DNA of 41,498 nucleotides, taken from IMG/VR virus record IMGVR_UViG_3300020391_000002, positions 1-41,498 of that record; one strand, given 5' to 3'. Position 1 is the stretch's first letter. Each line of letters begins with the position of its first letter. A program made the translations under genes and the position numbers. The notes beneath the pieces were generated by a model that searched no databases, was not told the origin of the DNA, and saw only the letters and a list, made by a program, of their open reading frames with translations. This document shows positions 3,262-41,498 of this stretch, piece by piece. This DNA comes from a virus.

Positions 3262-4158
3262 TTAATCCTCTTTAAGTGATTTAAGTTTTTGGGTTAGTTG
3301 TTTGACAGCATCAACCTCAAAACACTTTTCTATTTCTGCATCACGCAGACAAAAAGCATCTTGCACTGCTTTGGCGGCTATCTTTGCCTCTGAACGAGAT
3401 AAACTAAAAGCATCACGCAGTCCATTCTCCCATTCTCTGATTGAAACGTCTTGACCTTTAACTTTCCGAATCTTGGCTCGCGGATTCATAGGAAACGTGA
3501 CCACAGATATTTCCATCAATTCTACTTCTTTAATCATTCTTCTTCGTGTCTTTGGATCGTAATGTGCGCCTTTTGCGCTTGTCTTAAATCCAATTGATAG
3601 GCCATCTAGTGCGCCCATCTTCATCAATTCATAAGTTTCTCGACCTGCCTGTGTACCCATCGCAAGCCGTCCTTTAACTTTTAATCCTTTTTGATCCTCT
3701 TCGATAGACTCAAAAACACCGATTGGCATATCAGTCTTATGCTGATATAAAAGCTTGACTCCTTTCGGTCCTGTTTTCTTGATACTCTTTTGAAAAGCAC
3801 CTGCCTGAATAACGTCATTCCCTAAATCAACATTCCCAAAAATTGATCCATATCCTTCAAAGGAGCCTTTATCATCCTCTTCATGTCCTGCCTTGATCTC
3901 TGCCGCAACCTGAAGAAACTCACGATTTTTTTTATCGTCTTCATCTTCTTCATCCTCGTGATAGCCTGCTTCCTCTGTCGGCTCTTGCTCGGCCATATCT
4001 TTTGCCATTTCTAAGATGACAGAGTTTTCTGTTTCTCTGATGTTAAGAACGTGCTTGTTATCTTCGGTTTCTAATTGCTGACTGAGAGCGTCAACACATG
4101 CGAGAATATCGTTATCCTCGATCTTTCTGGCTGTATAATCATCCATACGCTTTACCAT
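3262..4158 (-). CDS. HK97-type prohead protease with acidic N-terminal extension
   Basis: The product is 298 residues. The serine-protease domain occupies about residues 95-230. It shows GSFEGYGSIFGNVDLGNDVI at its start, the catalytic His in LLYQHKTDMPIGVF, and the catalytic Ser in ALDGLSIGFK. The VTFPMNPRAKI stretch near residue 222 is typical of the family. The first ~90 residues are an extra, strongly acidic region (HEDEEDEDDKK) not part of the usual protease; the C-terminal ~65 residues are helical. ATG 4158 lacks a good ribosome site; ATG 4146 is an alternative. The protease should cleave the capsid delta domain and itself inside the prohead. It lies directly before the capsid gene as in HK97. 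Confidence 0.92.
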   Translation of the reverse strand: MVKRMDDYTARKIEDNDILACVDALSQQLETEDNKHVLNIRETENSVILEMAKDMAEQEPTEEAGYHEDEEDEDDKKNREFLQVAAEIKAGHEEDDKGSFEGYGSIFGNVDLGNDVIQAGAFQKSIKKTGPKGVKLLYQHKTDMPIGVFESIEEDQKGLKVKGRLAMGTQAGRETYELMKMGALDGLSIGFKTSAKGAHYDPKTRRRMIKEVELMEISVVTFPMNPRAKIRKVKGQDVSIREWENGLRDAFSLSRSEAKIAAKAVQDAFCLRDAEIEKCFEVDAVKQLTQKLKSLKED

Positions 4159-4250
4159 TGTTAAGTTATCGTAATCGTCTGATTACTACAAAACAGGCAT
4201 CTGCATTGAGATACTTTATATTTATATGGATATTATCACAACTTTTTTTG

Positions 4251-4315
4251 ATTGACACCCTTTTGAAGTGATCCGTTTCGACCAAAGGTGGATCAATCCT
4301 CTTCGGAATGTCAAT
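4251..4315 (+). ncRNA. Highly structured intergenic element, possible small RNA or cis-element
   Basis: Nested inverted repeats stack into one long hairpin. ATTGACA (4251-4257) pairs with TGTCAAT (4309-4315). TTTTGAAG (4261-4268) pairs with CTTCGGAA (4301-4308). TGATCC (4269-4274) pairs with GGATCA (4290-4295). Small bulges are CCC (4258-4260) and ATCCT (4296-4300). The middle stem needs two T-G wobbles, so it forms in plus-strand RNA but has C-A mismatches in minus-strand RNA. A possible plus promoter lies just upstream: TTGAGA at 4206, a 17-base spacer, and GATATT at 4229. It sits in the 208-base gap between the small cassette and the protease gene. No matching RNA family is known to me. 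Confidence 0.4.
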
Positions 4316-4366
4316 GAAAGAACACGGTCAATAAATTATCTGATAACTTATAGTTTGTTTTCAAGT

Positions 4367-4684
4367 TTATTGTTGCAAATCAACATCTTTTACTTTGTTA
4401 CCAAAAAACTTTTTTGTCTTTTCTTTTTTTGGAGGCTCGTCTAAAACAAATTTGGCTTCCTCAAATTTTTTATCAATTTTTTTCAAGATTGATTCACGCA
4501 TCAACTCCACATAATCAGCATAATTATCGGGAAAATATCGAGCCATCAATGTCACAATTTGCTCGGTTTTGTTTAAGCCCATGTTTTTGTGAACATCATT
4601 CATCATTTTCCAAGCTTTACCGCCCACATGAACATAAACAGTTCCAGACTTCTTTTGTCTCCAACCATCACTTTTTGACATCAT
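4367..4684 (-). CDS. Hypothetical protein, last gene of the small control cassette
   Basis: The product is 105 residues of unknown function, with ATG 4684 (or ATG 4681) behind a strong AAAGGAG site. It overlaps the upstream gene by 17 bases. Residues 12-60 contain a pattern (VGGKAWKMMNDVHKNMGLNKTEQIVTLM) that could be a short ribbon-helix-helix-like or helical DNA-contact segment. The C-terminal third is Lys-rich (EEAKFVLDEPPKKEKTKKFF). It is not a recognised head protein although it lies inside the head module. With its two upstream neighbours it forms a three-gene unit driven by the promoter near 5.28 kb. Confidence 0.75.
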   Translation of the reverse strand: MMSKSDGWRQKKSGTVYVHVGGKAWKMMNDVHKNMGLNKTEQIVTLMARYFPDNYADYVELMRESILKKIDKKFEEAKFVLDEPPKKEKTKKFFGNKVKDVDLQQ

Positions 4685-4979
4685 TTAACTCCTTTGCTTT
4701 TTGAAACTCATCTCTGCCCTCTTCAGGGGACAAATCTTTGATCTCAGGCTTTTGCCATATTTGTTTGCAATTTGCATCATCAACTTGCATCTGCGAATAA
4801 GCTTGCCTATAACCTTCATCATACATTTCTGACATATTTGATTTATGCTCAATGCCTTTTTCGCAATCTAAAATGCCCTGCATAAAGTCATCATCCAAAC
4901 GAGATTCATTAGGGTGCATTTTGCCACTGGAAATAAATTTATACGGCATCATGAATCTTTGCTCCTGTTCAATGTTCAT
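4668..4979 (-). CDS. Hypothetical protein, middle gene of the small control cassette
   Basis: The product is 103 residues, hydrophilic and acidic, with no membrane segment and no recognised domain. ATG 4979 has AAGGAAC upstream and overlaps the preceding stop as ATGA; the 3' end overlaps the next gene by 17 bases. The overlaps show tight coupling of the three minus-strand genes. Residues 27-70 (LDDDFMQGILDCEKGIEHKS) hint at helices. It may act in the early or accessory phase, because its promoter region is shared with an operator-like palindrome. Function unknown. Confidence 0.75.
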   Translation of the reverse strand: MNIEQEQRFMMPYKFISSGKMHPNESRLDDDFMQGILDCEKGIEHKSNMSEMYDEGYRQAYSQMQVDDANCKQIWQKPEIKDLSPEEGRDEFQKAKELNDVKK

Positions 4980-5230
4980 TTTAAGTTCCTTAATATTTGT
5001 GTTGATAATGATGAGAAATTTATGACTCTTCGATTAGGCATGATATAAAAAAATTCTTTCGTTCCCTCTAAAGAGCATGTTGAAAATAAACAATACCCTG
5101 ATTCAAAATCTGTTTTAAGCCATATCTGAAAAGAATCCGACTCACCAACAGGTGATTCTGAGTCAATCAATATATCGCCCACTTGTAACTGATCAAATGC
5201 GGTAACAGGGTTTTTAGTTTTAAGTTTCAT
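4976..5230 (-). CDS. Hypothetical protein, first gene of the small control cassette
   Basis: The product is 84 residues from ATG 5230 (GGAG about ten bases upstream), or 90 from ATG 5248. I prefer 5230 because the predicted transcript start lies near 5260, which would leave only a 12-base leader for 5248. The sequence has a small beta-barrel-like pattern (FDQLQVGDILIDSESPVGES, residues 12-31) similar to short SH3-like or tudor-like phage proteins, but I cannot assign a family. It is the promoter-proximal gene of the cassette inserted between head genes. Confidence 0.7.
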   Translation of the reverse strand: MKLKTKNPVTAFDQLQVGDILIDSESPVGESDSFQIWLKTDFESGYCLFSTCSLEGTKEFFYIMPNRRVINFSSLSTQILRNLK

Positions 5231-5266
5231 TTTATATGCTCTCTCCATTAAAGTTTCCGAATGTAT

Positions 5267-5296
5267 AGCATACCAGACATTAAACCATAAGTCAAA
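5267..5296 (-). promoter_or_regulatory. Minus-strand promoter of the small cassette
   Basis: On the minus strand there is TTGACT at 5296-5291, an 18-base spacer and TATGCT at 5272-5267, a good sigma70-type promoter. Transcription would start near 5260 and serve the three small genes at 5230-4367. The -35 box directly abuts the 13-base palindrome at 5297-5309, so a protein bound there could block or recruit polymerase. Confidence 0.7.
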
Positions 5297-5309
5297 CCCA
5301 AATTGGGTA
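5297..5309. promoter_or_regulatory. Operator-like palindrome ACCCAAATTGGGT
   Basis: This is a perfect 6+1+6 base dyad beside the -35 box of the minus promoter and about 20 bases upstream of the plus promoter region for the 53-residue gene. The same dyad, with only the central base changed, occurs at 13588-13600 in the main divergent control region. The best candidate binders are the Cro-like protein at 13319-13534 and the XRE protein at 17875-18078. Confidence 0.65.
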
Positions 5310-5329
5310 ATTAAAATGTAAAATGAAGT

Positions 5330-5360
5330 TGATTTTTTGTTTATGTATAGTATTATATAC
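5330..5360 (+). promoter_or_regulatory. Plus-strand promoter region with GTATA-N6-TATAC dyad
   Basis: A TTGATT box at 5330-5335 is followed by TATTAT at 5351-5356. The spacer is only 15 bases, so the exact boxes are uncertain. The dyad GTATA-GTATTA-TATAC spans 5345-5360. The same dyad geometry overlaps the -10 boxes at 16058-16073 and 16572-16587. It lies 24 bases before the ATG of the 53-residue gene, with an AAAGGAG ribosome site in between. Confidence 0.55.
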
Positions 5361-5383
5361 TTATAAAACGAAAGGAGAAAAAA

Positions 5384-5545
5384 ATGAAAAAGCCAAAAAT
5401 AAGTAAAAACCTTTTTGAAAGTTGGAGCACTTCAGACCTTAAAAATCATTTAAAATATCTAGAAAACAAATTGCCAACGAACCACACGATTACATCAGCA
5501 ATTTTTATCGAAGAAGTTTTAGAAGAAAGATTTTTAAAAAATTAA
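5384..5545 (+). CDS. Small 53-residue plus-strand protein inside the head module
   Basis: An ATG at 5384 follows a strong AAAGGAG site (5371-5377) and a promoter-like region, and the frame runs 53 codons to TAA at 5543. The protein begins MKKPKISKNLFESWSTSDLK and is highly charged and helical, with no recognised domain. It is the only plus-strand gene in the roughly 13 kb late minus-strand block before 13.6 kb. The promoter carries the same dyad as early-region promoters, so it is probably an early or independently expressed accessory gene. It ends six bases before the stop of the Mu-F-type gene, tail to tail. Confidence 0.72.
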   Translation: MKKPKISKNLFESWSTSDLKNHLKYLENKLPTNHTITSAIFIEEVLEERFLKN

Positions 5546-5551
5546 AAATAA

Positions 5552-6379
5552 TTAAGAATCAACAGAATCCTCAACATCTGTATAAACAATTACACATCTG
5601 CAATTGATTACATTCGCAGGACCGCCCTTCGGATCGCCAACAAAATCCATTTCACGACCCCCTACTTTAAAAGATTCGCTCATCGATATTTTTGTCCCAC
5701 TGACCTCTGCATGGGCTGTTCGGGTTCTTGCATCATTTGTTGCAACCCACTCTTTCACCATTGCGACCCCGTAACTGTCGCCAACGGTCTCATGATAATT
5801 ATGATGAGCAAAACCCGTCGCGGAGTGCGTTTCCGTTCTCGCAATCAAAGCGGCTCTGTTTTTATTTATTCTTCTAAATTTCTTTCTAAGCTCCCTTGCA
5901 ATTTCTGGAACAGAAAGATCCTGCAACCTTAACCGTTCGATTTCTCGAAGAATTAAAATCCCTTGATTCCTTGAAATATTCGTAAATAAAACTTCTCTTT
6001 GCAAAAAGTAAGCGGCGACCACTTCTTCAAATTCTATTGATCTTCCGAAATCAAATGGCTCTTCTTGCTTCTGATCAATTCGATTATAGGCCTCATCATT
6101 ATAATCATAAATAGCTTTAAATATTCTTTTTAACTGTGCCTTAATTAGTGACTCTAATTCAATGTTGATGAGTTGGACAACATTACCACTACTCATCGCA
6201 GAATCTTGGTTAATAGTTCTTGAAATAATGTTTACATTTTTATTAAAACTTGTTTCGATTTTTCTTTGAAATCCACGAGCAAGATTATCGCGCAGTCTTG
6301 CCTGCTGTTTTGCATATTTTCTGGCGTTAATTCTACCCTGCCGAAATCCGACAATTTGTTTGGTTGCTTGAATTGCCAT
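5552..6379 (-). CDS. Minor head protein, phage Mu gpF / SPP1 gp7 type
   Basis: The product is 275 residues. The C-terminal ~110 residues match the Phage_Mu_F head morphogenesis domain: RTETHSATGFAHHNYHETVG, then EWVATNDARTRTAHAEVSGT, and the closing NCRCVIVY with a Cys pair. The N-terminal half is helical and Arg/Gln-rich. The ATG at 6379 touches the portal TAA, has no ribosome site of its own, and is probably translated by coupling. Proteins of this family sit inside the procapsid near the portal and help assembly or DNA delivery. The position right after the portal is the standard one. Confidence 0.9.
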   Translation of the reverse strand: MAIQATKQIVGFRQGRINARKYAKQQARLRDNLARGFQRKIETSFNKNVNIISRTINQDSAMSSGNVVQLINIELESLIKAQLKRIFKAIYDYNDEAYNRIDQKQEEPFDFGRSIEFEEVVAAYFLQREVLFTNISRNQGILILREIERLRLQDLSVPEIARELRKKFRRINKNRAALIARTETHSATGFAHHNYHETVGDSYGVAMVKEWVATNDARTRTAHAEVSGTKISMSESFKVGGREMDFVGDPKGGPANVINCRCVIVYTDVEDSVDS

Positions 6380-8593
6380 TTATTTTTTTGTACTTTTTGG
6401 ATGTCCTTTTGGTAACAAGTCTGTATCAAATGCCGCCCCTTGGAATCTTCCTGTTCTCAAGCTATACAAAAGAGCGTTAACTCTGGCAAATGCCCACTGA
6501 TCAGGTCCAGTAACGTTTGGACGGACCGATTGAGGATTGTTGTAATAGGCTCCTATGCCTCGGCGAAAGGATGCGGCGAGCATTCGAAAAGTAGCTCTTT
6601 TTGTAGGTTGATCACCGTACTTTTCATTATGATCATCCACTTTATTTCTAAGACCTGTTTTAATCTTTTCACTCATAATAAATTTTGAGGGGTCTTTCTG
6701 CTTTAGTTCTTCGCCGACTGCTTCCTCATATTCAGCATGTGTTCGACAGGGCATGTAAATCATCGTCCCGTCTTCATCGTGAGAATGAAATCCAACACAA
6801 CCTATTTCTTGTGCTCTTTCTAGTGCCTCGTCAGAGGTTGTAAAAACATCTCTTCGTAACTGATACTTTTCCTCATCGACCTTTCCCTCTAACTCTTTAA
6901 TGACAGAGAGAACCGCATCTTTCATTCCTTGTTCGCCAATCTTAGGATTAATCACGCCCCATTTCATTTGTGCGACAATTCCCGCAATATTTGACAGAGT
7001 AGGCTTCAAATCGGGATCAGTAAATTGATCGCCATCTCCCAAATGTCTCGCGGCCCATGCTTCCCTTTCTTTGATCCAATCTAAAACAGTAGGGGTTTGT
7101 GATCCTTCTCTTGCTTTTTCCCAAAGCCTGAATGCTTCCGTACCTCGTATATTACCACCCGCTCTCCAAATCTTCCTTCCGTTTGCTGTCATATCATCGG
7201 CTAAGTTCTTAGAAAAATTAAAATCGAATTGTGGATATTCACTGTTTCTTAAGGATATTTTTTTATCGTCACCGCGATTTGGGAAATCAGTTTGCTTTGA
7301 ATCATAAAACTTTATGTCCTCCTCATCGTCCATCTGTAAAGGTTGATCAGGGCTTTCCTCGTTCAATGCAAATAGACTTGCGTTAACTAATAAGCCATCT
7401 GCGCCTTCTACTGAATCGAGTCCAAGACGTTCTCTCGCTTCGTTTCTGGTCATGATTCCTTCCCGTACTGCACCAATCACATTTTCATATATTCGCTTTC
7501 GTCTTTCCGATAACGCAGGAATCTCATTTGTATCAAATAAAAATTCAAGTCCTTCTTTGAACTGAGGCATTAACCATTCATTGATATCCGATTGCACTTT
7601 AATCAGCATCGGTATGATTGTTTCCTCATACAAAGCTAATCTTGCCTCTGCAACATTCGCATATGTTTGAGCATCAGGAACTCCCACTAATTGAGAAGGA
7701 ACACCAAAGCACATCGCAATATCTGTGGCGCTCATGTGCTTGAGATTTATGAAGTCCATATCTTTTGGTGACAAGCCCATTTCTTTCCAGTCAAAATCAC
7801 CCTCTAACAATAATGGTCTGCCTGCATTTTGAGAACCCGTAAAACGATTATTCAAGTCCGTTAAAAGTTGTTGTCTTTGACTATCTGTAAGATTCACTGC
7901 AAATCCTTCATCATCTTTTGGTTTGAATATCACTGCACCCGATGGTCTTGCCCCATTATTCAAAAGATTGATGTTGTGCTTGCTACTTAGATTGTGCTGA
8001 TCAACCTCGACAGCCGCCGCATTGAGGGGTGACATCCCATAATAATCATCGAGTGGATTCCATAACTTTATTTGTTTAAGATCAGAGAACCCATTTTCTT
8101 GATCCACATCATAAGTATCAGATACTCTACCATTTAGCATGTATTCATAACGATCAGGGAAAGCACCACCATTTCCTTTGATATTTATTCGATCGGGTCT
8201 TAACAAATGCAACTCTTTCGGTAAATTACCCATTCCTTCGATTCGCAAGACATAAGAGTTTCCAGATAATAGTAAAAACCCAAAGAGCGAGTTCATAAAC
8301 TCGGAATAACTTTGGAGCGGGTTTGGCCTGCTGATTAGCGAAACGGCAGGATGTGATTCTAAGTTATCTCCGTCTGCATTTAGGATTCGAAAGGGAACAC
8401 TCGCCGCACCCTTAGATATTTCATTGACACATCGATAAACTATAGCGTTCTTCATATAGCCTTCGGATGCTAAATCATCGTAAGTCATTGTTTTTGAAGG
8501 CATTGCATTCACCCCAAAATATCCAACCATTGATGAATTTTTCGTTTCTAACTTGTTTCTGTTCCTTCTTAAAAATCTGTCAAATATTGCCAT
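6380..8593 (-). CDS. HK97-type portal protein with extra C-terminal modules
   Basis: The product is 737 residues from ATG 8593, chosen over ATG 8608 because GGAG lies nine bases upstream and the ATG overlaps the terminase stop as TGATG. Residues ~25-410 are an HK97-family portal, with IVYRCVNEISKGAASVPFRI near 50 and the SATDIAMCFGVPSQLVGVPD region near 290. That is already full portal length. The remaining ~320 residues are additional. One part has GCVGFHSHDEDGTMIYMPCR (~600-620). The end has RRGIGAYYNN, WAFARVNALLYSLRTGRFQG and DLLPKGHPKS. Similar C-terminal blocks occur on other phage head proteins, but their role is unknown to me. Confidence 0.9.
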   Translation of the reverse strand: MAIFDRFLRRNRNKLETKNSSMVGYFGVNAMPSKTMTYDDLASEGYMKNAIVYRCVNEISKGAASVPFRILNADGDNLESHPAVSLISRPNPLQSYSEFMNSLFGFLLLSGNSYVLRIEGMGNLPKELHLLRPDRINIKGNGGAFPDRYEYMLNGRVSDTYDVDQENGFSDLKQIKLWNPLDDYYGMSPLNAAAVEVDQHNLSSKHNINLLNNGARPSGAVIFKPKDDEGFAVNLTDSQRQQLLTDLNNRFTGSQNAGRPLLLEGDFDWKEMGLSPKDMDFINLKHMSATDIAMCFGVPSQLVGVPDAQTYANVAEARLALYEETIIPMLIKVQSDINEWLMPQFKEGLEFLFDTNEIPALSERRKRIYENVIGAVREGIMTRNEARERLGLDSVEGADGLLVNASLFALNEESPDQPLQMDDEEDIKFYDSKQTDFPNRGDDKKISLRNSEYPQFDFNFSKNLADDMTANGRKIWRAGGNIRGTEAFRLWEKAREGSQTPTVLDWIKEREAWAARHLGDGDQFTDPDLKPTLSNIAGIVAQMKWGVINPKIGEQGMKDAVLSVIKELEGKVDEEKYQLRRDVFTTSDEALERAQEIGCVGFHSHDEDGTMIYMPCRTHAEYEEAVGEELKQKDPSKFIMSEKIKTGLRNKVDDHNEKYGDQPTKRATFRMLAASFRRGIGAYYNNPQSVRPNVTGPDQWAFARVNALLYSLRTGRFQGAAFDTDLLPKGHPKSTKK

Positions 8594-9891
8594 CACGAAA
8601 TTCTCCAAGACACATCGCCACGCGATTTGCTTAATTCAGTTAATCCCCAAACCAACGCATCAAGTCGGTCAGGAGATGGTTTGGATTCGCCTGTGTATGT
8701 ACACATTTGACTTTCAAGTTCTGGAAAAACTCCCAGATGGTGAACCTTGCCTTGCTCATATAAGGCTGAGATCGGCTCTGCTCTAAGCATCTTGCCACGG
8801 CTTGCATGGACTGCTCTATATTTTACCGTCGAATCAATACTCTTTAATAAACGCTCCACCAAATCTCCACCGTTGTTGATCTCAGCAACAATCAGGTTGG
8901 CTGAATATTTATGGTATAGATCAATCGCCAACCGACCCCAACTATCAGGGGTATACTTCCCCGACTTATCATCTAGTAAATAATACTTATTATTCAGGTC
9001 TTTTGCCACTACTACGATTCCTGTTTCATCAGAGTTGGCATTTGATGTCACAGCAGGATCGATCCCCACGCATATTTTTGAAAATTCAACATTTGTTAAC
9101 TTGGGCAGTCTTGCATCATTGATCATGCGATTATTCCACAGGGCACCATCGATATCTTCGATAATTTCAGCATAAAGTTCTTGTCTGCCCAGATTCGTTC
9201 CTTCATATCTTTCACGTAACATTGCCAAAGTGGACTCAGCCAAATTATCAGCATTCTCAAATGTATTTCCTTTGGTTATATAAACATCCTCTCGTTTTGA
9301 AAGAGTTATCAAAAGTTGCGTTGGTTTTGGAGTTGTGGTGATTATACACTTTGGATTCTTTCCTAATCTTAAAGAGAACATTAATTGATCAAAAGCTTCT
9401 GGATATCTCCAAGCCGCTAACTCGTCACACCAAGCACGATGAAACTGCGGTCCTCTAAGCCTATCAGGTTCGGTCGCCGAAAACCCAATGATTTTTGATC
9501 CATTAAATAATCTTATCTCAGACGCTGAAGAATTATATCCCTGACCGCGACCTTGCAGTAAGCAATCTTTCGGAAGCAATTTGAGGATACCACTAACACC
9601 ACCAAATGCGACTCGACGGAGATCACCGAACGTTGGAGTTACGACCGCAACTTGCACTTCTGGATTTCTCAACGCATATAAAATCGTGTCGTATGCACCA
9701 GTCAGAGTTTTTCCCCAACCACGCCCTGCCTGAATCATCCAAATATGCCAATCGCCCAAAGGAGTGATTTGAGCGTTTCGCGCTTTGTCCAACCATTTAG
9801 TGTATAAAATCGCTGTCTCTTTGTGACCTTGATTCCGCAAGTTCGTCCAATTGCTCCATAACTCTGCGGAAGGATTCTGGGTTGTTAACAT
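8593..9891 (-). CDS. Terminase large subunit (packaging ATPase / nuclease)
   Basis: The product is 432 residues from ATG 9891, which has AAAGGTG upstream; the longer frame from 9927 lacks a ribosome site. The ATPase domain shows Walker A AGRGWGKT (residues 55-62), Walker B WCDEL (~154-158) and coupling motif TTTP (~185-188). The RNase-H-like nuclease domain shows VGIDPA (~275-280), AEINNGGD and the final SPDRLDALVWGLTEL. All key acidic residues are present. It packages DNA through the portal with the small subunit, whose gene overlaps it upstream. The type resembles Terminase_6C-containing enzymes. I cannot infer headful or cos packaging from this alone. Confidence 0.95.
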   Translation of the reverse strand: MLTTQNPSAELWSNWTNLRNQGHKETAILYTKWLDKARNAQITPLGDWHIWMIQAGRGWGKTLTGAYDTILYALRNPEVQVAVVTPTFGDLRRVAFGGVSGILKLLPKDCLLQGRGQGYNSSASEIRLFNGSKIIGFSATEPDRLRGPQFHRAWCDELAAWRYPEAFDQLMFSLRLGKNPKCIITTTPKPTQLLITLSKREDVYITKGNTFENADNLAESTLAMLRERYEGTNLGRQELYAEIIEDIDGALWNNRMINDARLPKLTNVEFSKICVGIDPAVTSNANSDETGIVVVAKDLNNKYYLLDDKSGKYTPDSWGRLAIDLYHKYSANLIVAEINNGGDLVERLLKSIDSTVKYRAVHASRGKMLRAEPISALYEQGKVHHLGVFPELESQMCTYTGESKPSPDRLDALVWGLTELSKSRGDVSWRIS

Positions 9892-10380: not shown

Positions 10381-11601
10381 TTATTTTATCTGAATTTCAT
10401 TAAATGTTTGAGACGTATCTTTTAAAATAGCGTCTCTCCCTGTGAATTCCTGCCACCGCCTTACGATAACATCACAATAAGATTCATCCAATTCTATCAT
10501 TCTGCAATGCCTGTTAGTTTTCTCAGAGGCAATAAGAGTACTACCCGATCCACCAAAAATATCCAAAACTATATCGCTTCCCTTCGTATTGTTTGTGATC
10601 TGATATTCAAGAAGATCAACAGGCTTCATCGTCGGATGCACGTCATTTCTATTGGGCCGATTAAAATCAAGTACCGTTACTTGAGTGCGATCTGATGCCC
10701 AAAGATGCGCCGATCCGTCTTTCCAACCATAAAGGCAGGGCTCATGCTTCCAATGATAATCTTGTCTTCCCATCACCATAGAGTTTTTATTCCAAATCAA
10801 ACACTGTCTTACCTTCCACCCCGCATCTTTCACAGCACCTCTGAATGCATAACTTTCCGTATCCGCATGCCAAATATAAAAAACGGCACCCTCTTTCATT
10901 ACCAGATCTGCTGAAATAAACGAATCTTTTAAAAATAATCTAAAATTTTCATCATTCATATTGTCATTTTCTATTTTCATCCTGTCTTTTGTTTTACCAA
11001 CATAATCGACGTTGTATGGAGGGTCTGTTATTAATTGATCAGCTAACTCACCATCCATCAACTTTTCAATATCTCTTAACAGGGTCGCGTCCCCACAAAT
11101 TAATCTGTGATTTCCTAACACCCAAATATCACCCTTCTTTGTTTTTGCCTCTTTTATCAATTCAGGAACGTAGTCTGGGTCAATTAATCCTTCCTCTTCG
11201 AAATCACCAAGAATACCTAGATCTGCAAGTTCTCTTTCATCGAAACCTGTCAAATCAAGATCATAATCCTCGCCCAATAAATCTGATATTTCTATGTTTA
11301 ACAATTCGTAATTCCAATCTGCAGATTCACCACTTTTGTTATCCATTATTCTATAAGCTCTCGATTGGGCATCTGTTAAATTTTTAGCAATAACGCAAGG
11401 AACCTCAAGTAACCCCAATGCCTTTGCCGCCTTTAACCTAGTATGACCAACAACTACTTCATAATTAGAATCAAGTACCAAAGGTTGCTGAAAACCAAAC
11501 TCTTTTATAGAACGCAATACATCACTCACTGCCTGATCGTTTATTCTTGGATTATTTTTGTAAGGCACGATTTCATTTATATCAATAACTTCAATTTCCA
11601 T
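10381..11601 (-). CDS. DNA methyltransferase with N-terminal ParB-like domain
   Basis: The product is 406 residues. Residues 1-~110 are a ParB/Srx-type domain (INEIVPYKNNPRIND, then VVVGHTRLKAAKALGL). From ~155 on it is an amino-methyltransferase of the beta order: catalytic TDPPYNVDY at 192-200 precedes the SAM-binding IFGGSGSTLIASE at 348-360, with HPTMKPVDL between. It should methylate adenine N6 or cytosine N4 in a short site that cannot be read from sequence. No partner restriction enzyme is evident, so it is probably an orphan phage enzyme protecting its DNA or marking it. ATG 11601 has AAGGGA upstream. Confidence 0.93.
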   Translation of the reverse strand: MEIEVIDINEIVPYKNNPRINDQAVSDVLRSIKEFGFQQPLVLDSNYEVVVGHTRLKAAKALGLLEVPCVIAKNLTDAQSRAYRIMDNKSGESADWNYELLNIEISDLLGEDYDLDLTGFDERELADLGILGDFEEEGLIDPDYVPELIKEAKTKKGDIWVLGNHRLICGDATLLRDIEKLMDGELADQLITDPPYNVDYVGKTKDRMKIENDNMNDENFRLFLKDSFISADLVMKEGAVFYIWHADTESYAFRGAVKDAGWKVRQCLIWNKNSMVMGRQDYHWKHEPCLYGWKDGSAHLWASDRTQVTVLDFNRPNRNDVHPTMKPVDLLEYQITNNTKGSDIVLDIFGGSGSTLIASEKTNRHCRMIELDESYCDVIVRRWQEFTGRDAILKDTSQTFNEIQIK

Positions 11602-12712: not shown

Positions 12713-13319
12713 CTTTTTCACTCCATTCTTTATGATTTGATTCCCAATAAAGTAATGCTTTTTTCCAACTCTTCATTTTCACCTTTCCTACCATCCATCC
12801 TTTTGATTCATGATAGTTAAAAAATTTATCAACATCTGACTTCAACTGCTTTTCTTCTTTAAAAATAGTCAACTCGTCAATTGTCGGTTTATTAAATCTT
12901 GTAATATTAACTCTTGTAGTATTCTGGTCCGTATTTTTAGGGATAGGGTAATGATCCATATTTTTATGGATACCCCCACCCGATTTTTCTACCCTATCCA
13001 CATTATTATGGATAGGTTGTTCGATAATCTCAAGATATCTTTTGCTGATGTTTTTTGTCCCTTCCACAAACTCAATTGTTACTTTTAGATATCCAAGCTT
13101 TTCCAACGTGGAGACTAATTCACTAATTGTTTTTTTATGTAATTTGTAAAGGTTTGCAAAATAATTATTGGTAGCCCAACAACGACCATCTTTGTTACAA
13201 AGCGCCGTGATCTCTGCGTACAATAACTTAGCATTTGGTCTTAAACGCTCGTCATATCTGACATTTGCAGGTAATACTGCATAATAACTTGGCTTTTCCA
13301 TTTGCCCATTTTGGGTCAT
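12639..13319 (-). CDS. O-like replication initiator with winged helix
   Basis: The product is 226 residues. Residues ~10-100 are a winged-helix HTH_36-like domain of phage replication initiators: YYAVLPANVRYDERLRPNAK, LLYAEITALCNKDGRCWATN, NYFANLYKLHKKTISELVST, LEKLGYLKV. A Lys/Asp-rich C-terminal part follows. Its own coding sequence contains iteron-like repeats (12926-13016), as lambda O contains the origin. ATG 13319 overlaps the stop of the Cro-like gene as TAATG and has no strong ribosome site, so coupling is likely. It probably binds the origin and recruits host replication proteins, since no phage polymerase is present. Confidence 0.82.
   Translation of the reverse strand: MTQNGQMEKPSYYAVLPANVRYDERLRPNAKLLYAEITALCNKDGRCWATNNYFANLYKLHKKTISELVSTLEKLGYLKVTIEFVEGTKNISKRYLEIIEQPIHNNVDRVEKSGGGIHKNMDHYPIPKNTDQNTTRVNITRFNKPTIDELTIFKEEKQLKSDVDKFFNYHESKGWMVGKVKMKSWKKALLYWESNHKEWSEKDAKRQSDRSTYASSFYDYDKATNI
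12926..13016 (-). repeat. Iteron-like repeats, candidate replication origin
   Basis: Inside the O-like gene there are three imperfect direct copies of TATCC(A/C)TAA(A/T)AATryGGA(T/C), read on the minus strand at about 13016-12993, 12974-12954 and 12948-12926. Each copy is itself a dyad (for example ATCCATA-TTTT-TATGGAT). Spacings are about 39 and 28 bases. They encode the short repeats PIHNNVD, GIHKNMD and PIPKNTD. An AT-rich stretch lies just beyond (12890-12920). Lambda carries its iterons in the same place, inside gene O. Confidence 0.55.
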
Positions 13320-13534
13320 TATGATGTTTCAGTCAAGTAAAAATCATCAGGTCTTACGATTCCATCGGTCGCAAGGTTGATCAAACGCATATCTTCTGGC
13401 CTTGGTATTCTTGACCCATTACACCATTTGACGAGTGCAAATCTTGAGAAAGTCGCACCGTGATCTTCTTTTGCTTTAAGTAAAAAATCGCGTTGAGTAA
13501 GATTATTTTTTTTCAGATAATCGGATAATTTCAT
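13319..13534 (-). CDS. Cro-like helix-turn-helix regulator
   Basis: The product is 71 residues. It has the fold order of Cro/CI-type HTH proteins: MKLSDYLKKNNLTQRDFLLK, then FSRFALVKWCNGSRIPRPED, ending with a short beta hairpin region (GIVRPDDFYLTET). This is the length and pattern of a Cro-like dimer. ATG 13534 has GGGAG seven bases upstream. It is the first gene of the leftward unit, facing the early plus-strand genes across a control region with a 13-base palindrome. It is the best candidate to bind ACCCAANTTGGGT and control both directions. Confidence 0.85.
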   Translation of the reverse strand: MKLSDYLKKNNLTQRDFLLKAKEDHGATFSRFALVKWCNGSRIPRPEDMRLINLATDGIVRPDDFYLTETS

Positions 13535-13642
13535 AAATAACTCCCAAGAAATACTTTAAATTTTATCACATTTTATGTTGCAAAGATACCCAAGTTGGGT
13601 TTTAATGATGATTCAAATGACAGAAAAGAGGTGCTTGAAAAA
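13535..13642. promoter_or_regulatory. Divergent early/late control region
   Basis: An AT-rich region separates the leftward Cro-like gene and the rightward nuclease gene. It contains the perfect dyad ACCCAAGTTGGGT at 13588-13600, the partner of the one at 5297-5309. On the minus strand TTGCAA (13582-13577) can serve as a -35 box, but no clean -10 is obvious; promoter boxes on the plus strand are also unclear. A third, imperfect copy (GCCCATTTTGGGT, 13304-13316) overlaps the start of the O-like gene. Confidence 0.6.
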
Positions 13643-16037: not shown

Positions 16038-16073
16038 TTGACTTTAATTAATTGAACGTATATTATTCTATAC
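16038..16073 (+). promoter_or_regulatory. Promoter with GTATA-N6-TATAC dyad
   Basis: TTGACT at 16038-16043, a 17-base spacer and TATTAT at 16061-16066 make a near-consensus sigma70 promoter. The dyad GTATA-TTATTC-TATAC (16058-16073) overlaps the -10 box, so a bound protein would block polymerase. It serves the gene at 16100. Confidence 0.75.
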
Positions 16074-16099: not shown

Positions 16100-16534
16100 A
16101 TGAGATTAACATTAAAAAAAGTAAATGAAATGATTCAGCAGATCGAATCTGGATGGGAGTTAGTGAAAGGAAATGGTTATTTTTATTGGACTCATCCCAC
16201 AGATTCACCTTTAGATAATGGTTCAGTACACGTTTACAAACTTAGTGACTATACACTGGAACAATGGGTTGCAGAGTTTATCGATTTCATCAATGGAGAG
16301 AAAGAGACTAATCTCAAATATCGATTCTGGGGTTGGTCAGTGAGCGTGGATGGGTCAAGTGCAGGTTCGTCTTTTGACAGAAATGGACCCTTCAGCTTTC
16401 AGAGTATGATGAAAACATTTTCGAATTCAAAAATTGTGGAATATATGGTTTTTGTCCCTTTGATTAAAAAAGGAACAAAAGATGCTTACTTGGATTACGC
16501 TCAAAATATCAAAGTAAAAACTAAAAAAAATTAA
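16100..16534 (+). CDS. Hypothetical early protein, monocistronic
   Basis: The product is 144 residues, rich in aromatic residues (GYFYWTHPTDSPLDNGSVH, RFWGWSVSVDG), so probably a compact soluble beta/alpha domain. I do not recognise it. It has its own strong promoter at 16038 and the next gene has another, so each is separately controlled. ATG 16100 lacks a clear ribosome site (AAGTAG at most). Early-region position and separate control suggest a host-takeover or anti-defence protein, but nothing in the sequence shows it. Confidence 0.78.
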   Translation: MRLTLKKVNEMIQQIESGWELVKGNGYFYWTHPTDSPLDNGSVHVYKLSDYTLEQWVAEFIDFINGEKETNLKYRFWGWSVSVDGSSAGSSFDRNGPFSFQSMMKTFSNSKIVEYMVFVPLIKKGTKDAYLDYAQNIKVKTKKN

Positions 16535-16552
16535 AAATTTAATGATAATTTG

Positions 16553-16587
16553 TTGACTTTGATCTTTAAATGTATATAATACTATAC
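16553..16587 (+). promoter_or_regulatory. Promoter with GTATA-N6-TATAC dyad
   Basis: TTGACT at 16553-16558, a 16-base spacer and a perfect TATAAT at 16575-16580. The dyad GTATA-TAATAC-TATAC (16572-16587) overlaps the -10 box, as at 16058. It drives the gene at 16620 and probably those that follow. The two promoters share the TTGACTTT and GTATA...CTATACATAA blocks. Confidence 0.8.
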
Positions 16588-16619: not shown

Positions 16620-16865
16620 ATGGTAAAGCGAATGAGAGAAAAAAGTGAGATCAGAATTGTAAAACATAAGGGTGGAGTCGCACACGTCTTATTTTGGGAA
16701 GGTCGGGCAAGACCTTGGCAGATAACAGTTTGTCCTGATGGTTGGGAGGGTGGCAAATCAAGAATGGTTTCCCTTAAAACCGAGGAAGCGGTGAAAGATA
16801 GACTTGAGAGAAGCGCAGAATGGACTCAAAAAAAGGTTGCACAAGTAACAAGAAATTGGAAATAA
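16620..16865 (+). CDS. Hypothetical early protein
   Basis: The product is 81 residues, basic, with a Trp-rich core (VLFWEGRARPWQITVCPDGW) and a charged helical C-terminus. No known domain. ATG 16620 follows AAAGGA at a normal distance and a strong dyad-containing promoter. The basic charge and short length would suit a nucleic-acid-binding or inhibitor protein, but this is a guess. The stop lies about 24 bases before the next ATG. Confidence 0.74.
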   Translation: MVKRMREKSEIRIVKHKGGVAHVLFWEGRARPWQITVCPDGWEGGKSRMVSLKTEEAVKDRLERSAEWTQKKVAQVTRNWK

Positions 16866-17874: not shown

Positions 17875-18078
17875 ATGGATTTCGATGGAAATACTCTCAG
17901 ATCAATGAGAGAAAGCGCAGGCGTAACACAAGCAGAAGTTGCCGCATATCTTGGATACTTTACTAATGGTGTTCCAAATAGATCGGCAGTATCAAACATG
18001 GAAAACGGGCATCAGCCAATAAATAAAAGATTATCATTAGCGTTGACTAACTATTTCAAAGATAAAGGATTTGATTGA
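17875..18078 (+). CDS. XRE-family helix-turn-helix regulator
   Basis: The product is 67 residues, just one HTH domain: LRSMRESAGVTQAEVAAYLG, then RSAVSNMENGHQPINKRLSL. This is the classical XRE recognition pattern (T-Q-x-E-V-A ... S-x-x-E-N-G). No C-terminal dimer or protease domain, so it is not a full CI repressor. ATG 17875 has AAGGAT upstream. It is the late part of the early operon and may bind the GTATA-N6-TATAC or ACCCAANTTGGGT sites to shut early promoters off. Confidence 0.85.
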   Translation: MDFDGNTLRSMRESAGVTQAEVAAYLGYFTNGVPNRSAVSNMENGHQPINKRLSLALTNYFKDKGFD

Positions 18079-32243: not shown

Positions 32244-35200
32244 TTACTCCTCCAGTTTTTTAACACGTTTTCTAAGCTCCTGTATCTCTTTTAAAAGCAA
32301 AGGAACCATCTTTGAATAATCGATACCCATCATCTCTCCATCTTCTTGAGGAACGCTTACAGCGTTTGGACAGGTATGTATTACCTCCTGTGCGATCATA
32401 CCATAATCTTCATGCTTGCCATCACTTTTCCAATCAAATTGTCTTACGAGCAATGAATCGATGGCTGTACCGCTATCATCTGCATCTTCAATATTTTCTT
32501 TTAACCTTGCATCTGAGGATGTGTTATATGCGGTTGCACTACCAGTAACAGTAATAGAACCAACAATAGGTGAGCCACCTGTATTTACAAACTCCATAGC
32601 TGTACCGCTACTATGTCTTATTACTTCAATAGTGGTTGAACTTACGTTACTGGCAAAAGTTGCTCTCCCATCGTTGCGGAGAGTTATAGCATTGTCTGTA
32701 TCAGCTACTGCGCTAGTGCCTACGAGAAAATCACCGCCAGATGTCAGCCTAGCAGACTCACTGCCGTTAGCAAAAAACCGTAGTGTTCCGCTTGAACTAT
32801 TTGTATCTAGATCTAATGAATAACCGCCACCCGCTTTAATTATCATTCCACGATCAGTAGATAATATTGTTCTGTTAGCAGTTCCATGATCAACTCTAAA
32901 ATCACGACCTGTATCAGTAAACACATTTAATAATGACGCGGGAACTTGTGTGCCAATACCCAATCCCGTTGATGTCAGGCGCATTTTTTCACTACCTGCG
33001 CCTACCTCAAATGTCAGCGCAGAAGGTCCATTGAGAAATAACATTCCACTGCTTGATTGAACTCTCTGATTAGCGGCAGTTGTTAATCCAGTTGCGGCAT
33101 TTACCGTCCCACTGAAATGAGCGTCTTTAAACTTTGCGGCAGTTAATCCCAAATCAATAGCGGCATTATTTGCCGTGCCGTTTGAATTTGCGGGAACTAT
33201 GGCATTAGTAGCACTTGAAAATTGAATATTTACATTACCTTGACCAATTTGTATTTCATTACCAAAATAAGCAACACTACCTTTTAGGTTTGAATCTTTC
33301 CTAAACTCAACTAAGTTTCCGTCCCCAGTAAGACGATTTACATTTAAAGCAACATTATTATCTCTTACAAAAGAACCTGATCCATTGCTTTGAAATCTAA
33401 TGCCTGCGGAAGTATCGTTATCTGCTGTTTTGCCGATTAATAGGTTGCCGTTTGACAAAAGCACCATTCTCTCTCCACCACCGTTACCACCTTGGAAAGT
33501 GTCAAATGCTAAATTTCCATGTCCAGTCCCTGTTACTTCTCCTCTAATTCCTGATACTTTACCTGAATTAAAATTAGTGGCAGTTGATAAAAATGTTATA
33601 CCAGTTGAGGCTTCACCAAATGAAAGAGATGTTACTGGTGAGACTCCAATACCAACATTTACACCACTAGCAAAACTTGCAGTACCATCAGTCTTGAGAA
33701 AGAAATCCGATGTGCGAGTACCACCGCCAAAGCCCATTCCAAATGAAGATACTGAGATGTTGCCTTTTTGAACAGTGTCTTGATAAAATCTAGCTATATC
33801 TCCGGCAGTGTTCAATCTATTTAATTCAATAGGATTATCGGAGGCGGTTGTGACGCGAACCTGATCGTTAGACATTAAGGCAATGCCTGCTGTAGCTAAA
33901 GATGTGGCAGTCTTACCCACAAGCAAGTTACCACTTTTATCGAATCTGCCTCGCTCTATGAGAGTATTTGCCCCACCATTTTGATTTGTGTAAAAACTTA
34001 AAAACCCTGCGCCATTGTTTCCTGCTTCATCTGTGCCGCCTTTAATTCCTGCCCTTGTAGTCCTTATGTAATTGCTTCCATCGTAATAATGATCAGAAAA
34101 AGTAATGATAGAGCCTTTTTCATTTGTATCTGCTTCTATAGGATTAAAAAGATCAAAAGAGGATTCTGCAATTTGCACAGTGCCAGATGTATGTCCACCG
34201 TTATGAGAAATTTGTAGTTTTGTTACGGGCGATGAGGTTCCAATACCAACGTTGCCGTTATCAAGTATTGTTAATGAAGCGCTTCCATTAGTAGCTAGTG
34301 TAAGTGATGTATCATTGACCGCAGTAATAAATTGATTAGGATTTCCTATGGTAATTTTATCTGTACTATTTAATTGAATACCACCAGATAAATATGAAGT
34401 TCCAGCAACATGTAATTTATATGTTGGATTAGTAGTGCCAATACCAACGCGGCCTGATGAGTCTATGCGGAGTCGCTCATTTTCACCGCCAGTCATAAAC
34501 TGTAGTACAGCAGAACCACCAAGCCCTGATCTAATATAATTAGATATAGATCCAGAAGATGTTCTTAATTCAATTTCAGAAACACCGCCAATAGAATCTA
34601 TTAAAAGTGTTTGATTACCAGAAGAGCTGCTTATATTAAGCCCCGTAGCTGTAATAGCACCACTAAAAACTGATGAGCCGTCATGCGATATCCTCAATCT
34701 TTCAGTTGGAGTTGTTCCATTGCTTGAAGTAGAGAAGAACATATCCGTATCACCTGCTCCCGGACTATTTGTTCTTACTACGCCTATTTTTGCAGATAAT
34801 CCAGATGAGGCCATTTGGAAGTCAATATCAAATCCACTATTATTGCCACCTGCTGAATTTTCTAGTTTTAAGGCGTGAGCTACTCCTGATTGATTTTTTT
34901 GAATATGAACAATGGAATCAGGCGCAGTGGTAGCTCCAACCATAAGTGAGCCGTTGGGAATGTTGACTTGCTGTAAATGGTTTATTGATAATGATTCGAC
35001 CATATCAGCACCGCTTTGTGGCTGAGAATATAAAGATAATCCTCCTCCAAAATTACCGCTACCTGCTGTTTTTTTACCAAATATTGCACCAGTTCTTATT
35101 TCTAAGTTTGAACCGCTAAACCACCTTTGAGCAAAAGTTATTCCGTTTCCAAGAGAACCTGCACTATCTCCACCTTCTCTAACAATTCGTAAACCATTTG

Positions 35201-38200
35201 TTCCGTCTGCTAAACTTGCAGTTCCGGATGTTGTGTAGTCTCCGCCTGTAGCACTTACGCTACCTGAGAATGTGGCGTTCTGAGAGGAGTCAAGTGTTAA
35301 TGCTGTGGTTAGTGTAGCTGTAGATTGAGCGGCAGTCTTGAAGACTAAATCACCACCTGCGTTATTATCTCTTATTGCTGATAACTCTGCGCCTCCTGCT
35401 GTGGCAGTTCCAGATGTTGAGTTTACAAATCTGAATGATGAAGATGTTGATTGATCTGAACTGTTATTACGGATTTGAATTAATGTGGTATCTCCCCCTG
35501 CGTTTGTTGACATTGTTTCAAGCTTTGCACTTGGGGATGTGGTTCCAACACCTACTCTTCCTGATGAGTCTATGCGCATACGCTCTAAACCGTTTTGATA
35601 TAACGCGACAGGATGATTAGTGCTAGACCCTATGCGAATATCAGTATCTTGAACTGTTTGAATAAAGGCTTTTGTACTTTCGCTACCTGATTTTACTTGA
35701 AAATTTGTATGAGCTGATCCTTTGACAGTCAAGGTACTGTCGGGATCAGTTTCTCCAATACCAACGTTGCCAGATGAATTTACTGCAAAATAACTACTTG
35801 CACCTCGCAGTATTTCGAACATATCAGTAGTAGTGTTGCCTTGTGCAAGAGACCAAGCTGTACCTTGACCTTGTCGTTGCATTTGAACACTCGCAGCTCC
35901 AGCCGATGATGGAAATATTTGAACTGTTCCTGTTGATAATATATTTCCTGCCGCATGAAGAGATGCTTGAGGATTAGTGGTTCCAATACCTAATCCTGTA
36001 TTATTGATTCGTACTTGTTCCACATTACTAGCTCTAAAAAATAAAGAATCTCCAGCTGCACCAACTCCAACATGAGCATCACTGGTTGTTGAACTATCTG
36101 AGAAAGTTATAAAAGCGTTTGCGGCATCCGATCTTTTGAAAGATGAAACAATAGAAGTACCAGACGTTTCTACCGAAAGCCGTCTTGCGGGCGACGTGGT
36201 TCCCAGACCAATGTTGCCTGCGCTAGTAATACGCATACGCTCTGTAGGAGAGCTAGCACCGTCTGCAGTTGTCCAGAATTGCAGATTAGTTGGCATATCA
36301 TTATTGCCTGGAGTGCCGTCTACAAAACTAATAACAAAAGCACCGTCTAAAAACTGATCTCCATCATTTCCACGAAATGCTATATAACCTAATTGATCGC
36401 CTGCTTGTACAATTGTGTTACCATTTACAGTTGTGCTTCTTGTATGCTCAAAAGCCAATCCTGTAGAGCCTGAATTATTACTTTGCCGAGATAAAGTCAA
36501 ATTTCCAGTAAAATGTCCTGTACCATTTACATTGAGTTTATCTCCATAGGAAGAAGTAGTGCCTACAAGAAGATTGCCAGAACTATCAATACGCATATAC
36601 TCAGAAGAGCCTGTTTCGTTTCTAAAGGTATGCGTTTCACTATCTAAATTTGAAACTTGATTATTAGTTCCAATCTCAAGATAGCCATCTGTGTTACTAA
36701 GGCGTATACGAGAAGCACTTGTACTACTTTCGTGTACGTGCAATCGCTCTGCGGGCGATGTAGTTCCCAGACCAAGGTTGCCGCCATTTATATATGAATT
36801 ACCCAGAGCACTAAGTAAAACATTAATATTATTATTTCCATCAAATAATGAAAGTTGTCCGTCACCACCCCCTGATAAATGAAATTTTGCTTTTCTTACA
36901 TCGTTTGAGTTACTAAAGTGGGCAATGTCTGTGCTTGTTGTAGCAGTTGCTAAAACCTCTAATGGTGCTGAGGGCGATGTGGTTCCTATACCAAGTCGCG
37001 AGGAAGAACTATCAAAAAACAAGCCTTGATTTCCCGAACCATCATAAAAGCTAATGTCACCGTTGTTAGCAAATTGTGCTGTCAAAATAGTATTAGTGCC
37101 GTTATAGCGTTTTAGAAATATATCGCCATGGCTTGTTCCATTTTGACTTGTTAGATTTAAATCTCCACCATTACTATCTATGAATCCTTTTTGATTAGTC
37201 GCATCTGAATCTTGCAGTGTAATTCTTGCAAAACCAGTATTAGCTACAGTAAGCCCTGTGCTTGTAACGCTACCTGTAAATTCTGCTTTACCGTTTATAT
37301 CTAAAGCTAGCCCTGTACCCGCGTGATCTATTTGTAGCCCTGTGAATGGACAATTAATGTCAGTTATGTTAATTCTAGCCAATCCATTTGAAAGCGCATC
37401 ATTGCGAGGGCTTTCTATTAAGAATGCTTGCTCCCCAGCACCCATGCCTCCAATTTCAAGCTTTGCACTTGGGGATGCGGTTCCAACACCTACTCGGCCT
37501 GATGAGTCTATTCTCATGCGTTCACTACCGCCAGTGCTGAAACCAAGGACATTTGAACTAGCTCTAAACATACCTGTATCAGTATCATTAATAAACTGGT
37601 AGCTAGGACTGCTTGCTGAACCATCACCGATGCGTGTAAGTCCAGTAATTATTGCGTTGCCGCCAACGTGTAATTTTTGCGTTGGGTTTCCTATGTTTAT
37701 TCCTGCGTTGCCTGATGAGTTTATAGTAAGAACTGTTAGTGAATCAGTTTTATTTTCTACTTGAAAATTTCCGTTTGCTAAACTATTAAGTCTGTATCTT
37801 TTACCACTAGTATGTGTCAGATCAAATTCACAATTATTATTAATAGTTCCAATAGTTAATCCATCTGCACTCAAAGAAGTGGTTCCGATTCCAACGCGAC
37901 CAGAACTATTAATACGCATACGCTCTGTAGGTGCTGAAGATGCGGCTGATGTTCCAAAGCGTAATGTGTGATCATTTGAAGTGCTTTCAGCGACTGCAGT
38001 AATAAAAGTACCTCGAGTAGTAGTATTTGTACCAGAAAGCCATAATTGAACACCAGTGTTTGCTGTTCCTACAGGATTTACAAAACTTGCAATTTTTACA
38101 GTATTACCAGAAGAAGGTTCAGATACTGTAAGACGTTCTGTTGGAGATGTGGTTCCAATACCCAATCCTGTGCTGTTAATAATAGCTCTATTTGTTCCAC

Positions 38201-41467: not shown

Positions 41468-41498
41468 TCTGATCCTTCAAAAGCGTTAGAAAATGGCT
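41468..41498. repeat. Terminal direct repeat, right copy (circular closure)
   Basis: Exact copy of bases 1-31. Removing one copy leaves 41,467 unique bases and joins the two halves of the 18-residue-repeat protein in frame. Confidence 0.93.

Follow-up and report, generated by a model that had tools for sequence, protein, structure and literature searches.

A short gene antisense to the head genes, behind a dyad promoter shared with early-region genes, in a metagenomic tailed phage

The antisense gene and its promoter

The window analysed here is the whole of a virus record of 41,498 bases (IMG/VR IMGVR_UViG_3300020391_000002) from a tailed phage seen solely as metagenome contigs, and the gene under study is an open reading frame (ORF) for 53 amino acids on its plus strand (5384–5545). 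The minus strand encodes the terminase, portal, MuF, S78 protease and major head protein, a gene content that suggests late transcription, and the plus strand at 13.6–18.3 kb carries, among other genes, a PD-(D/E)XK exonuclease, a single-strand-DNA-binding protein and a small XRE regulator. Pfam identifies the genes that flank the cassette as MuF (5552–6379, minus strand; Phage_Mu_F) and the protease (3262–4158, minus strand; Peptidase_S78). Between them lie three minus-strand ORFs (4976–5248, 4668–4979 and 4367–4684) and the plus-strand ORF, which occupies the gap (5249–5551) between two minus-strand genes and opens with ATG behind the ribosome-binding site AAGGAG (5372–5377). The first minus-strand ORF reaches 5248, but a start at 5230 is favoured, since a relative's gene begins at the corresponding MKL. 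The first-pass annotation had described a 53-residue frame with a strong ribosome site between the Mu-F and protease genes, facing three minus-strand genes with a right edge at 5230, and this outline was borne out.

The product, MKKPKISKNLFESWSTSDLKNHLKYLENKLPTNHTITSAIFIEEVLEERFLKN, is predicted to form three helices (residues 9–12, 16–27 and 33–52; predicted local distance difference test, pLDDT, 90). It has no match in PHROGs or PADLOC and none at the cut-off in Pfam, and Foldseek found nothing for the model at E values up to 0.001 in a viral library or the PDB. Among the matches listed by VIA-align most were ribosomal chains, presumably uL29, the best with Z 7.0 and a root-mean-square deviation of 1.3 over 47 residues; helical bundles often give Z values below about 13, and ribosomal structures are over-represented. 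As Pfam ribosomal families gave no match at E up to 10 (subject to the HMMER filters), we note a uL29-like fold in the model as a remark only and do not claim a ribosomal function. Several other candidates were rejected: Ish1, RepB_C and Mst1_SARAH in Pfam (below cut-off or unconvincing), DNA polymerase beta-clamp matches (E 0.09, not believed), and matches to Erwinia and Salmonella phages (E 0.3–0.6), which in the one record opened fall within a 1371-bp gene.

Upstream of the gene, a sigma-70-like promoter, TTGATT-16-TATTAT (5329–5356, plus strand), overlaps GTATAGTATTATATAC (5345–5360), a dyad of the form GTATA-N6-TATAC that covers the −10 element and may serve as an operator. The window holds three exact copies of the dyad (at 5345, 16058 and 16572), against a mean of 0.027 and a maximum of 1 in 300 dinucleotide shuffles. 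The two distant copies (16058–16073 and 16572–16587) belong to the promoters of plus-strand early-region genes, 16100–16534 (a match to phrog_9154, whose function is unassigned in PHROGs) and 16620–16865 (no match in PHROGs or Pfam). Because the promoter–operator recurs before these two genes, the 53-residue gene is not regulated alone.

The facing minus-strand operon has its own sigma-70-like promoter, TTGACT-17-TATGCT (5267–5295, minus strand), with a second dyad, ACCCAA-N-TTGGGT (5296–5308), adjoining its −35 element. This dyad occurs exactly twice in the window (5296 and 13588) and in none of 300 shuffles; the second copy (13588–13600) lies between the early operon and the gene for a Cro-like helix-turn-helix (HTH) protein of 71 residues (13319–13534, minus strand; HTH_3 below cut-off only). 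By inspection, the TTGGGT half-site is similarly placed upstream of Cro-like homologs in six more loci (L171–L176), L177 being different, which suggests that the Cro-like protein is a candidate binder of ACCCAA-N-TTGGGT. A further element common to several relatives, TGTTTACTACAGGAAACA, was rejected as an operator, being part of a coding frame in each of the four loci read. No structured RNA was found with Rfam at 4100–6400; the minus-strand leader folds better than shuffled sequences (z −2.9), for which the dyads may account.

At 1.35 kb, the cassette is the part of the genome with the lowest GC content (32.1% versus 38.8%, with 1 of 803 windows equally low), and the 53-residue ORF itself stands at 26.5%. 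The first-pass annotation had called the cassette self-contained and divergently transcribed: its divergent arrangement, own promoters and deviating composition are confirmed, but its self-containment is not, given the repetition of the promoter–operator before two early-region genes.

Gene exchange and the antisense slot in relatives

Three contigs share the locus closely, L004/L005, L010 (record G002) and L009 (record G003). In L004/L005 the 53-residue gene (91% identical residues) follows a dyad promoter of its own and a similar ribosome site, and upstream of it stands an 83-residue gene with another dyad promoter; L010 and L009 have only the 83-residue gene, unrelated to the 53-residue one, behind a similar promoter. 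Behind this 83-residue antisense gene, L004, L009 and L010 each have a GC-rich hairpin and T run that resemble a terminator. The window matches L010 over 5260–5389, a stretch that takes in the promoter, the ribosome site and the start codon; the two then diverge and become alike again at 5544. Because similarity ends at the start codon and returns at the stop, the gene has evidently been exchanged behind a kept promoter. Across the window, L004, L009 and L010 the flanking MuF, portal and protease genes are 86–98% identical, while the 53-residue gene is present in the window and L004 and replaced by the 83-residue gene in L009 and L010.

The minus-strand genes are likewise a mosaic. The last two, 4668–4979 and the predicted ribbon-helix-helix (RHH) regulator 4367–4684, are kept in all four close genomes; the first varies, with no match in L009 or L010 and no family match at the cut-off. 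(In L005 it is present as two similar tandem copies, 4531–4785 and 4782–5066, and in the window as one.) The idea that 4.3–5.55 kb is present or absent as one unit does not hold, since the antisense genes and the first minus-strand gene are swapped, added or lost singly in the four close genomes. Nor was a broken 53-residue frame found between conserved flanks, an outcome the earlier annotation had named as fatal: the frame is intact in one close relative, and the two without it show clean replacement and no decay.

Between the window and L004, the 53-residue gene has proportions of non-synonymous and synonymous change (pN and pS) of 0.050 and 0.188 and a ratio of their rates (dN/dS, omega) of 0.24, from 12 differences only; dN/dS is 0.13–0.19 for the 83-residue gene and 0.06–0.09 for the last minus-strand gene. 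L023 has a distant homolog of 49 residues (38% identical), placed and oriented likewise. In a window with 177 ORFs of at least 50 residues, a frame that arose by chance in an AT-rich stretch between genes could be imagined, the more so as relatives are few and the dN/dS estimate small in its basis. We nevertheless regard this as extremely improbable and reject it because of the homologs (intact in L004 behind a similar ribosome site, distant in L023), the ribosome site and the swap pattern; the gene's own promoter dyad and its exact replacement by another gene in L010 argue the same way. From these sequence comparisons the ORF appears to be a genuine accessory gene.

The stop of the gene lies 6 bp from that of MuF and no terminator stands directly behind it, the nearest plus-strand terminator-like site being weak and inside MuF (6279). 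This would fit an antisense RNA device in which the transcript outweighs the peptide and, unterminated, enters MuF and portal antisense and delays the head genes. Such a device seems very improbable, however, as the peptide is conserved and the hairpin and T run behind the 83-residue gene would stop a transcript of this kind.

No DNA match to the window was found among phage records, and a scan of genome contigs with a protease alignment gave 65 loci at 33–51% identity, too remote for a host to be named. In IMG/VR, 80 loci were retained from a protease search; together with a MuF search, 58 loci span MuF to protease. Excluded were L001, L004, L006 and L007 (either the window's own segment or duplicates of the contigs in L005, L009 and L010), loci without a MuF or protease match, and L005, which ends before the protease. 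Antisense ORFs, counted as ATG ORFs with a Shine–Dalgarno site by a hand-made, untrained gene caller that also served for the gene content of the relatives' loci, number 34 in 61.4 kb of MuF–protease gaps versus 14 in 418.4 kb outside (0.55 versus 0.033 per kb, about 16 times as dense). At least one occurs in the gap in 16 of the 58 loci and none in the other 42. The genes are diverse: of 31 cassette proteins, few have a family match (YuA Gp49, DUF7694 and DUF3846, with one member each, are among these) and PADLOC matched none of the 31. An antisense accessory slot between MuF and protease was not recognised in the literature, as represented by open-licence papers, which makes this a weak negative.

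Promoter sharing, candidate regulators and a proposed early regulon

To see whether the slot and the early region share promoters, a single antisense cassette promoter from each of five phages was aligned with the early region of that phage, and the match was compared with 200 shuffles. In four of the five (the window, G002, G004 and G008) the match was better than in all 200 shuffles, so that an early-type promoter on the antisense strand of the slot is not peculiar to the window. G002 has the identical GTATA dyad before an early-region gene, and the early site of G008 is TGTTTATTATAACAAACA. All seven promoters compared within the close group (three from the window, two from L004 and one each from L009 and L010) combine a −35 element starting with TTG, a −10-like centre and GTATA-N6-TATAC, and in IMG/VR two long exact forms of the promoter module were found in this phage group only. 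In L012 the antisense promoter, TTGACA-17-TATTAT, lies within TGTTTA-N6-TAAACA, with the geometry kept and the letters changed.

Two small proteins are candidates for binding the GTATA dyad. The first is the XRE regulator of 67 residues (17875–18078, plus strand), of Cro size. Its homologs, present in 7 of 20 records (G004 and G008 among them), share a stretch N-(R/K)-S-x-(I/V) where the recognition helix is expected. A further contig with an XRE gene, L195, has no dyad in its 8.4 kb. The second is the product of 4367–4684, the best-conserved cassette gene, with homologs in 6 of 20 records, every one in a cassette; in IMG/VR the family was found only in cassettes of this kind (seven loci plus L023). 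AlphaFold models it with little confidence (pLDDT 70) and Foldseek gave E above 1, but it shows an RHH-like pattern, and most of the matches listed by VIA-align are proteins that we take to be RHH, such as NikR, CopG, ParD, MazE and Arc (Z at most 4.9); it is therefore predicted, on weak grounds, to be an RHH regulator. Its homologs in L015 (1010–1324) and L018 (2929–3243) are on the antisense strand, so the regulator itself switches strand.

The confinement of this RHH family to the cassettes, the nature of its structural matches and its presence in eight of the ten cassettes where a TGTWT/GTATA-type dyad was seen would suit a closed circuit, a self-regulated moron or immI-like module in which the RHH protein binds the GTATA dyad and governs both divergent promoters. 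We consider this unlikely: the dyad also precedes two genes 11 kb away, the dyad promoters of L013 and L025 have no RHH gene in the gap, and the structural model is poor. Moreover, G008, with a cassette promoter related to its early dyad, has the XRE gene and no RHH match in its 27 kb. The XRE protein is therefore favoured for the GTATA dyad, through which it probably represses, with the RHH protein left as its rival.

The ORF, the dyads and their recurrence, the swap boundaries, the enrichment of antisense ORFs and the promoter sharing in other lineages are all read from sequence, and they point to a swappable accessory slot whose members belong to the early regulon, lie antisense to the late genes and would be repressed through the dyad; we hold this interpretation with moderate confidence. 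Host RNA polymerase would fire the 53-residue gene early from its sigma-70 promoter, whose −10 element lies within GTATA-N6-TATAC, as one member of an early regulon whose promoter module is common to the two early-region genes. A repressor would then bind the dyad and close these promoters before or during transcription of the head genes from the opposite strand; the 67-residue XRE protein encoded downstream of genes 16100 and 16620 is the likeliest candidate, ahead of the facing operon's RHH protein. Early timing, repression and the identity of the binding protein are the parts of this scheme that we infer. With promoter and ribosome site kept, the genes behind them would be exchanged, giving different phages different helpers. 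The 53-residue protein may act in host takeover or, plausibly, in anti-defence.

Several observations weigh against an early-regulon slot. The dyad-type promoter claimed by the first-pass annotation stands as far as its dyad goes, which is far above the shuffles, but not by promoter consensus alone, which does no better than chance (11 sites versus 9.3 and versus 14.3 in shuffles). GTATA-N6-TATAC also occurs inside an ORF in G005 and in G006, where its setting may differ, and G005 fails the sharing test (7 of 200 shuffles as good) despite its antisense genes and XRE homolog. Antisense genes are present in L066, L069 and L070; the sole promoter inspected, in L066, is without such a dyad, and neither XRE nor RHH has a match in the L066 record. 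The 58 loci include many related ones and do not amount to 58 independent observations of the enrichment; the XRE count covers 20 records, and in the many fragments absence means little.

As the genome's stretch of lowest GC content, with the ACCCAA-N-TTGGGT dyad common to it and to the Cro-like regulatory region, the cassette might instead be a lysogeny or defence moron, expressed from a prophage and with products that exclude or counter other phages, as the first-pass annotation had suggested; the exclusion, anti-defence or control function named there is a guess. Whatever its function, the cassette varies among relatives, has its own predicted promoter and deviates in composition, as a moron would, but the 53-residue gene has no terminator of its own. 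Its address is like that of the anti-CRISPR genes of Pseudomonas Mu-like phages, which lie between the head protease/scaffold and a Mu G homolog and have a promoter of their own along with an HTH regulator (PMC4704812). We judge this explanation rather improbable, since no integrase was found among the proteins scanned (part of the window's proteins), the 53-residue protein has no match in PADLOC or PHROGs and none in Pfam at the cut-off, and its promoter is one common to early-region genes, not a prophage-specific one.

An early-regulon slot has partial parallels, by analogy, in acr–aca, P22 immI and the SIRV2 regulon; the locus combines features of all three and is a full instance of none. 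Like the acr–aca1 loci of the Pseudomonas aeruginosa JBD30/DMS3 group, it has varying accessory genes at one protease-side address, a conserved promoter of their own and a small DNA-binding regulator in the locus (PMC4704812). Unlike there, the accessory gene lies antisense to the late genes, its promoter module also stands before distant genes, the cassette regulator is RHH-like and in a divergent operon, and the slot is not known to have anti-CRISPR activity; acr–aca loci have the regulator immediately downstream in the operon, and no same-strand gene follows the 53-residue ORF within the slot.

Arc and Mnt of phage P22 are RHH repressors. Their region, immI (mnt-arc-ant, with sieA), lies inside the late operon, is variable and is mostly absent from the late message (PMC8022706), but stands between genes 16 and 9, and no match to the antirepressor gene ant was found among the window's cassette genes, all of at most 105 residues. 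In SIRV2 and its relatives many small early genes, presumably anti-defence, share a strong promoter within one repeated, conserved regulatory sequence, which in SMV2 has inverted repeats (PMC11065993); the promoters there are archaeal (TATA/BRE), and most of the SIRV2 genes are close to the ends of the genome, not in a structural module. T4-like PeSL cassettes, in which an early promoter and stem-loop elements mediate gene shuffling (as cited in PMC4503421), are similar, except that the kept element here is promoter, dyad and ribosome site, with a terminator behind the 83-residue gene only. The SAS/ESAS repeats of Cluster K mycobacteriophages stand ahead of a wide variety of small non-structural genes, and ESAS contains inverted repeats (PMC3203893); SAS is placed at the ribosome site in the non-structural half, whereas the repeat here is a putative promoter operator found also within the head module.

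A broader proposal, which is tentative and for now doubtful, is that the dyad promoter marks a phage-wide regulon of early anti-defence and host-takeover genes, that the MuF–protease junction is a dedicated head-on docking slot for them and that the design recurs with diverged operators in several uncultured lineages. Anti-defence accessory genes of phages usually resemble nothing known, and a repeated operator-promoter before unrelated small genes would allow a search by regulation instead of similarity, with a precedent in archaeal viruses (PMC11065993). If the design does recur in several lineages, the operator could serve as bait for unfamiliar anti-defence genes in metagenomes. The locus would add a physical docking site within the head genes, where the opposite-strand layout could exclude such genes from the late transcript.

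Other features of the window and its relatives

An immunity gene of a MuF polymorphic toxin was expected to follow directly, on the same strand, a MuF gene that has a toxin extension; the 53-residue gene was rejected as one, as it is on the opposite strand and the window's MuF is short (275 residues). Relatives have a MuF with a C-terminal extension bearing HExxH (HEYGHH, HEFGHQ, HEFGHA or HEFAHH), which the window's MuF is without (L009:2298–3992, L022:2024–3688, L034:1668–3257, L062:84–1970 and L078:3796–5493). In L009, L022, L034 and L078 a small same-strand gene stands behind it, and the pair is possibly a metallopeptidase-type MuF polymorphic toxin with its immunity gene (compare PMC5576092).

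The portal of the window (6380–8608, minus strand) contains a DUF3721 stretch at residues 576–642, in its C-terminal part; in relatives DUF3721 either immediately precedes the protease or lies at its N-terminal end, and the domain seems to be mobile among head genes. Near the terminase gene, 10381–11601 encodes a ParB-like domain fused to a DNA methyltransferase, and an ORF of 2790 codons with many diverged internal repeats (32244–40616) is perhaps a tail protein. A perfect direct repeat of 31 bp at the ends of the record (1–31 and 41468–41498) suggests a complete circular or terminally redundant assembly.
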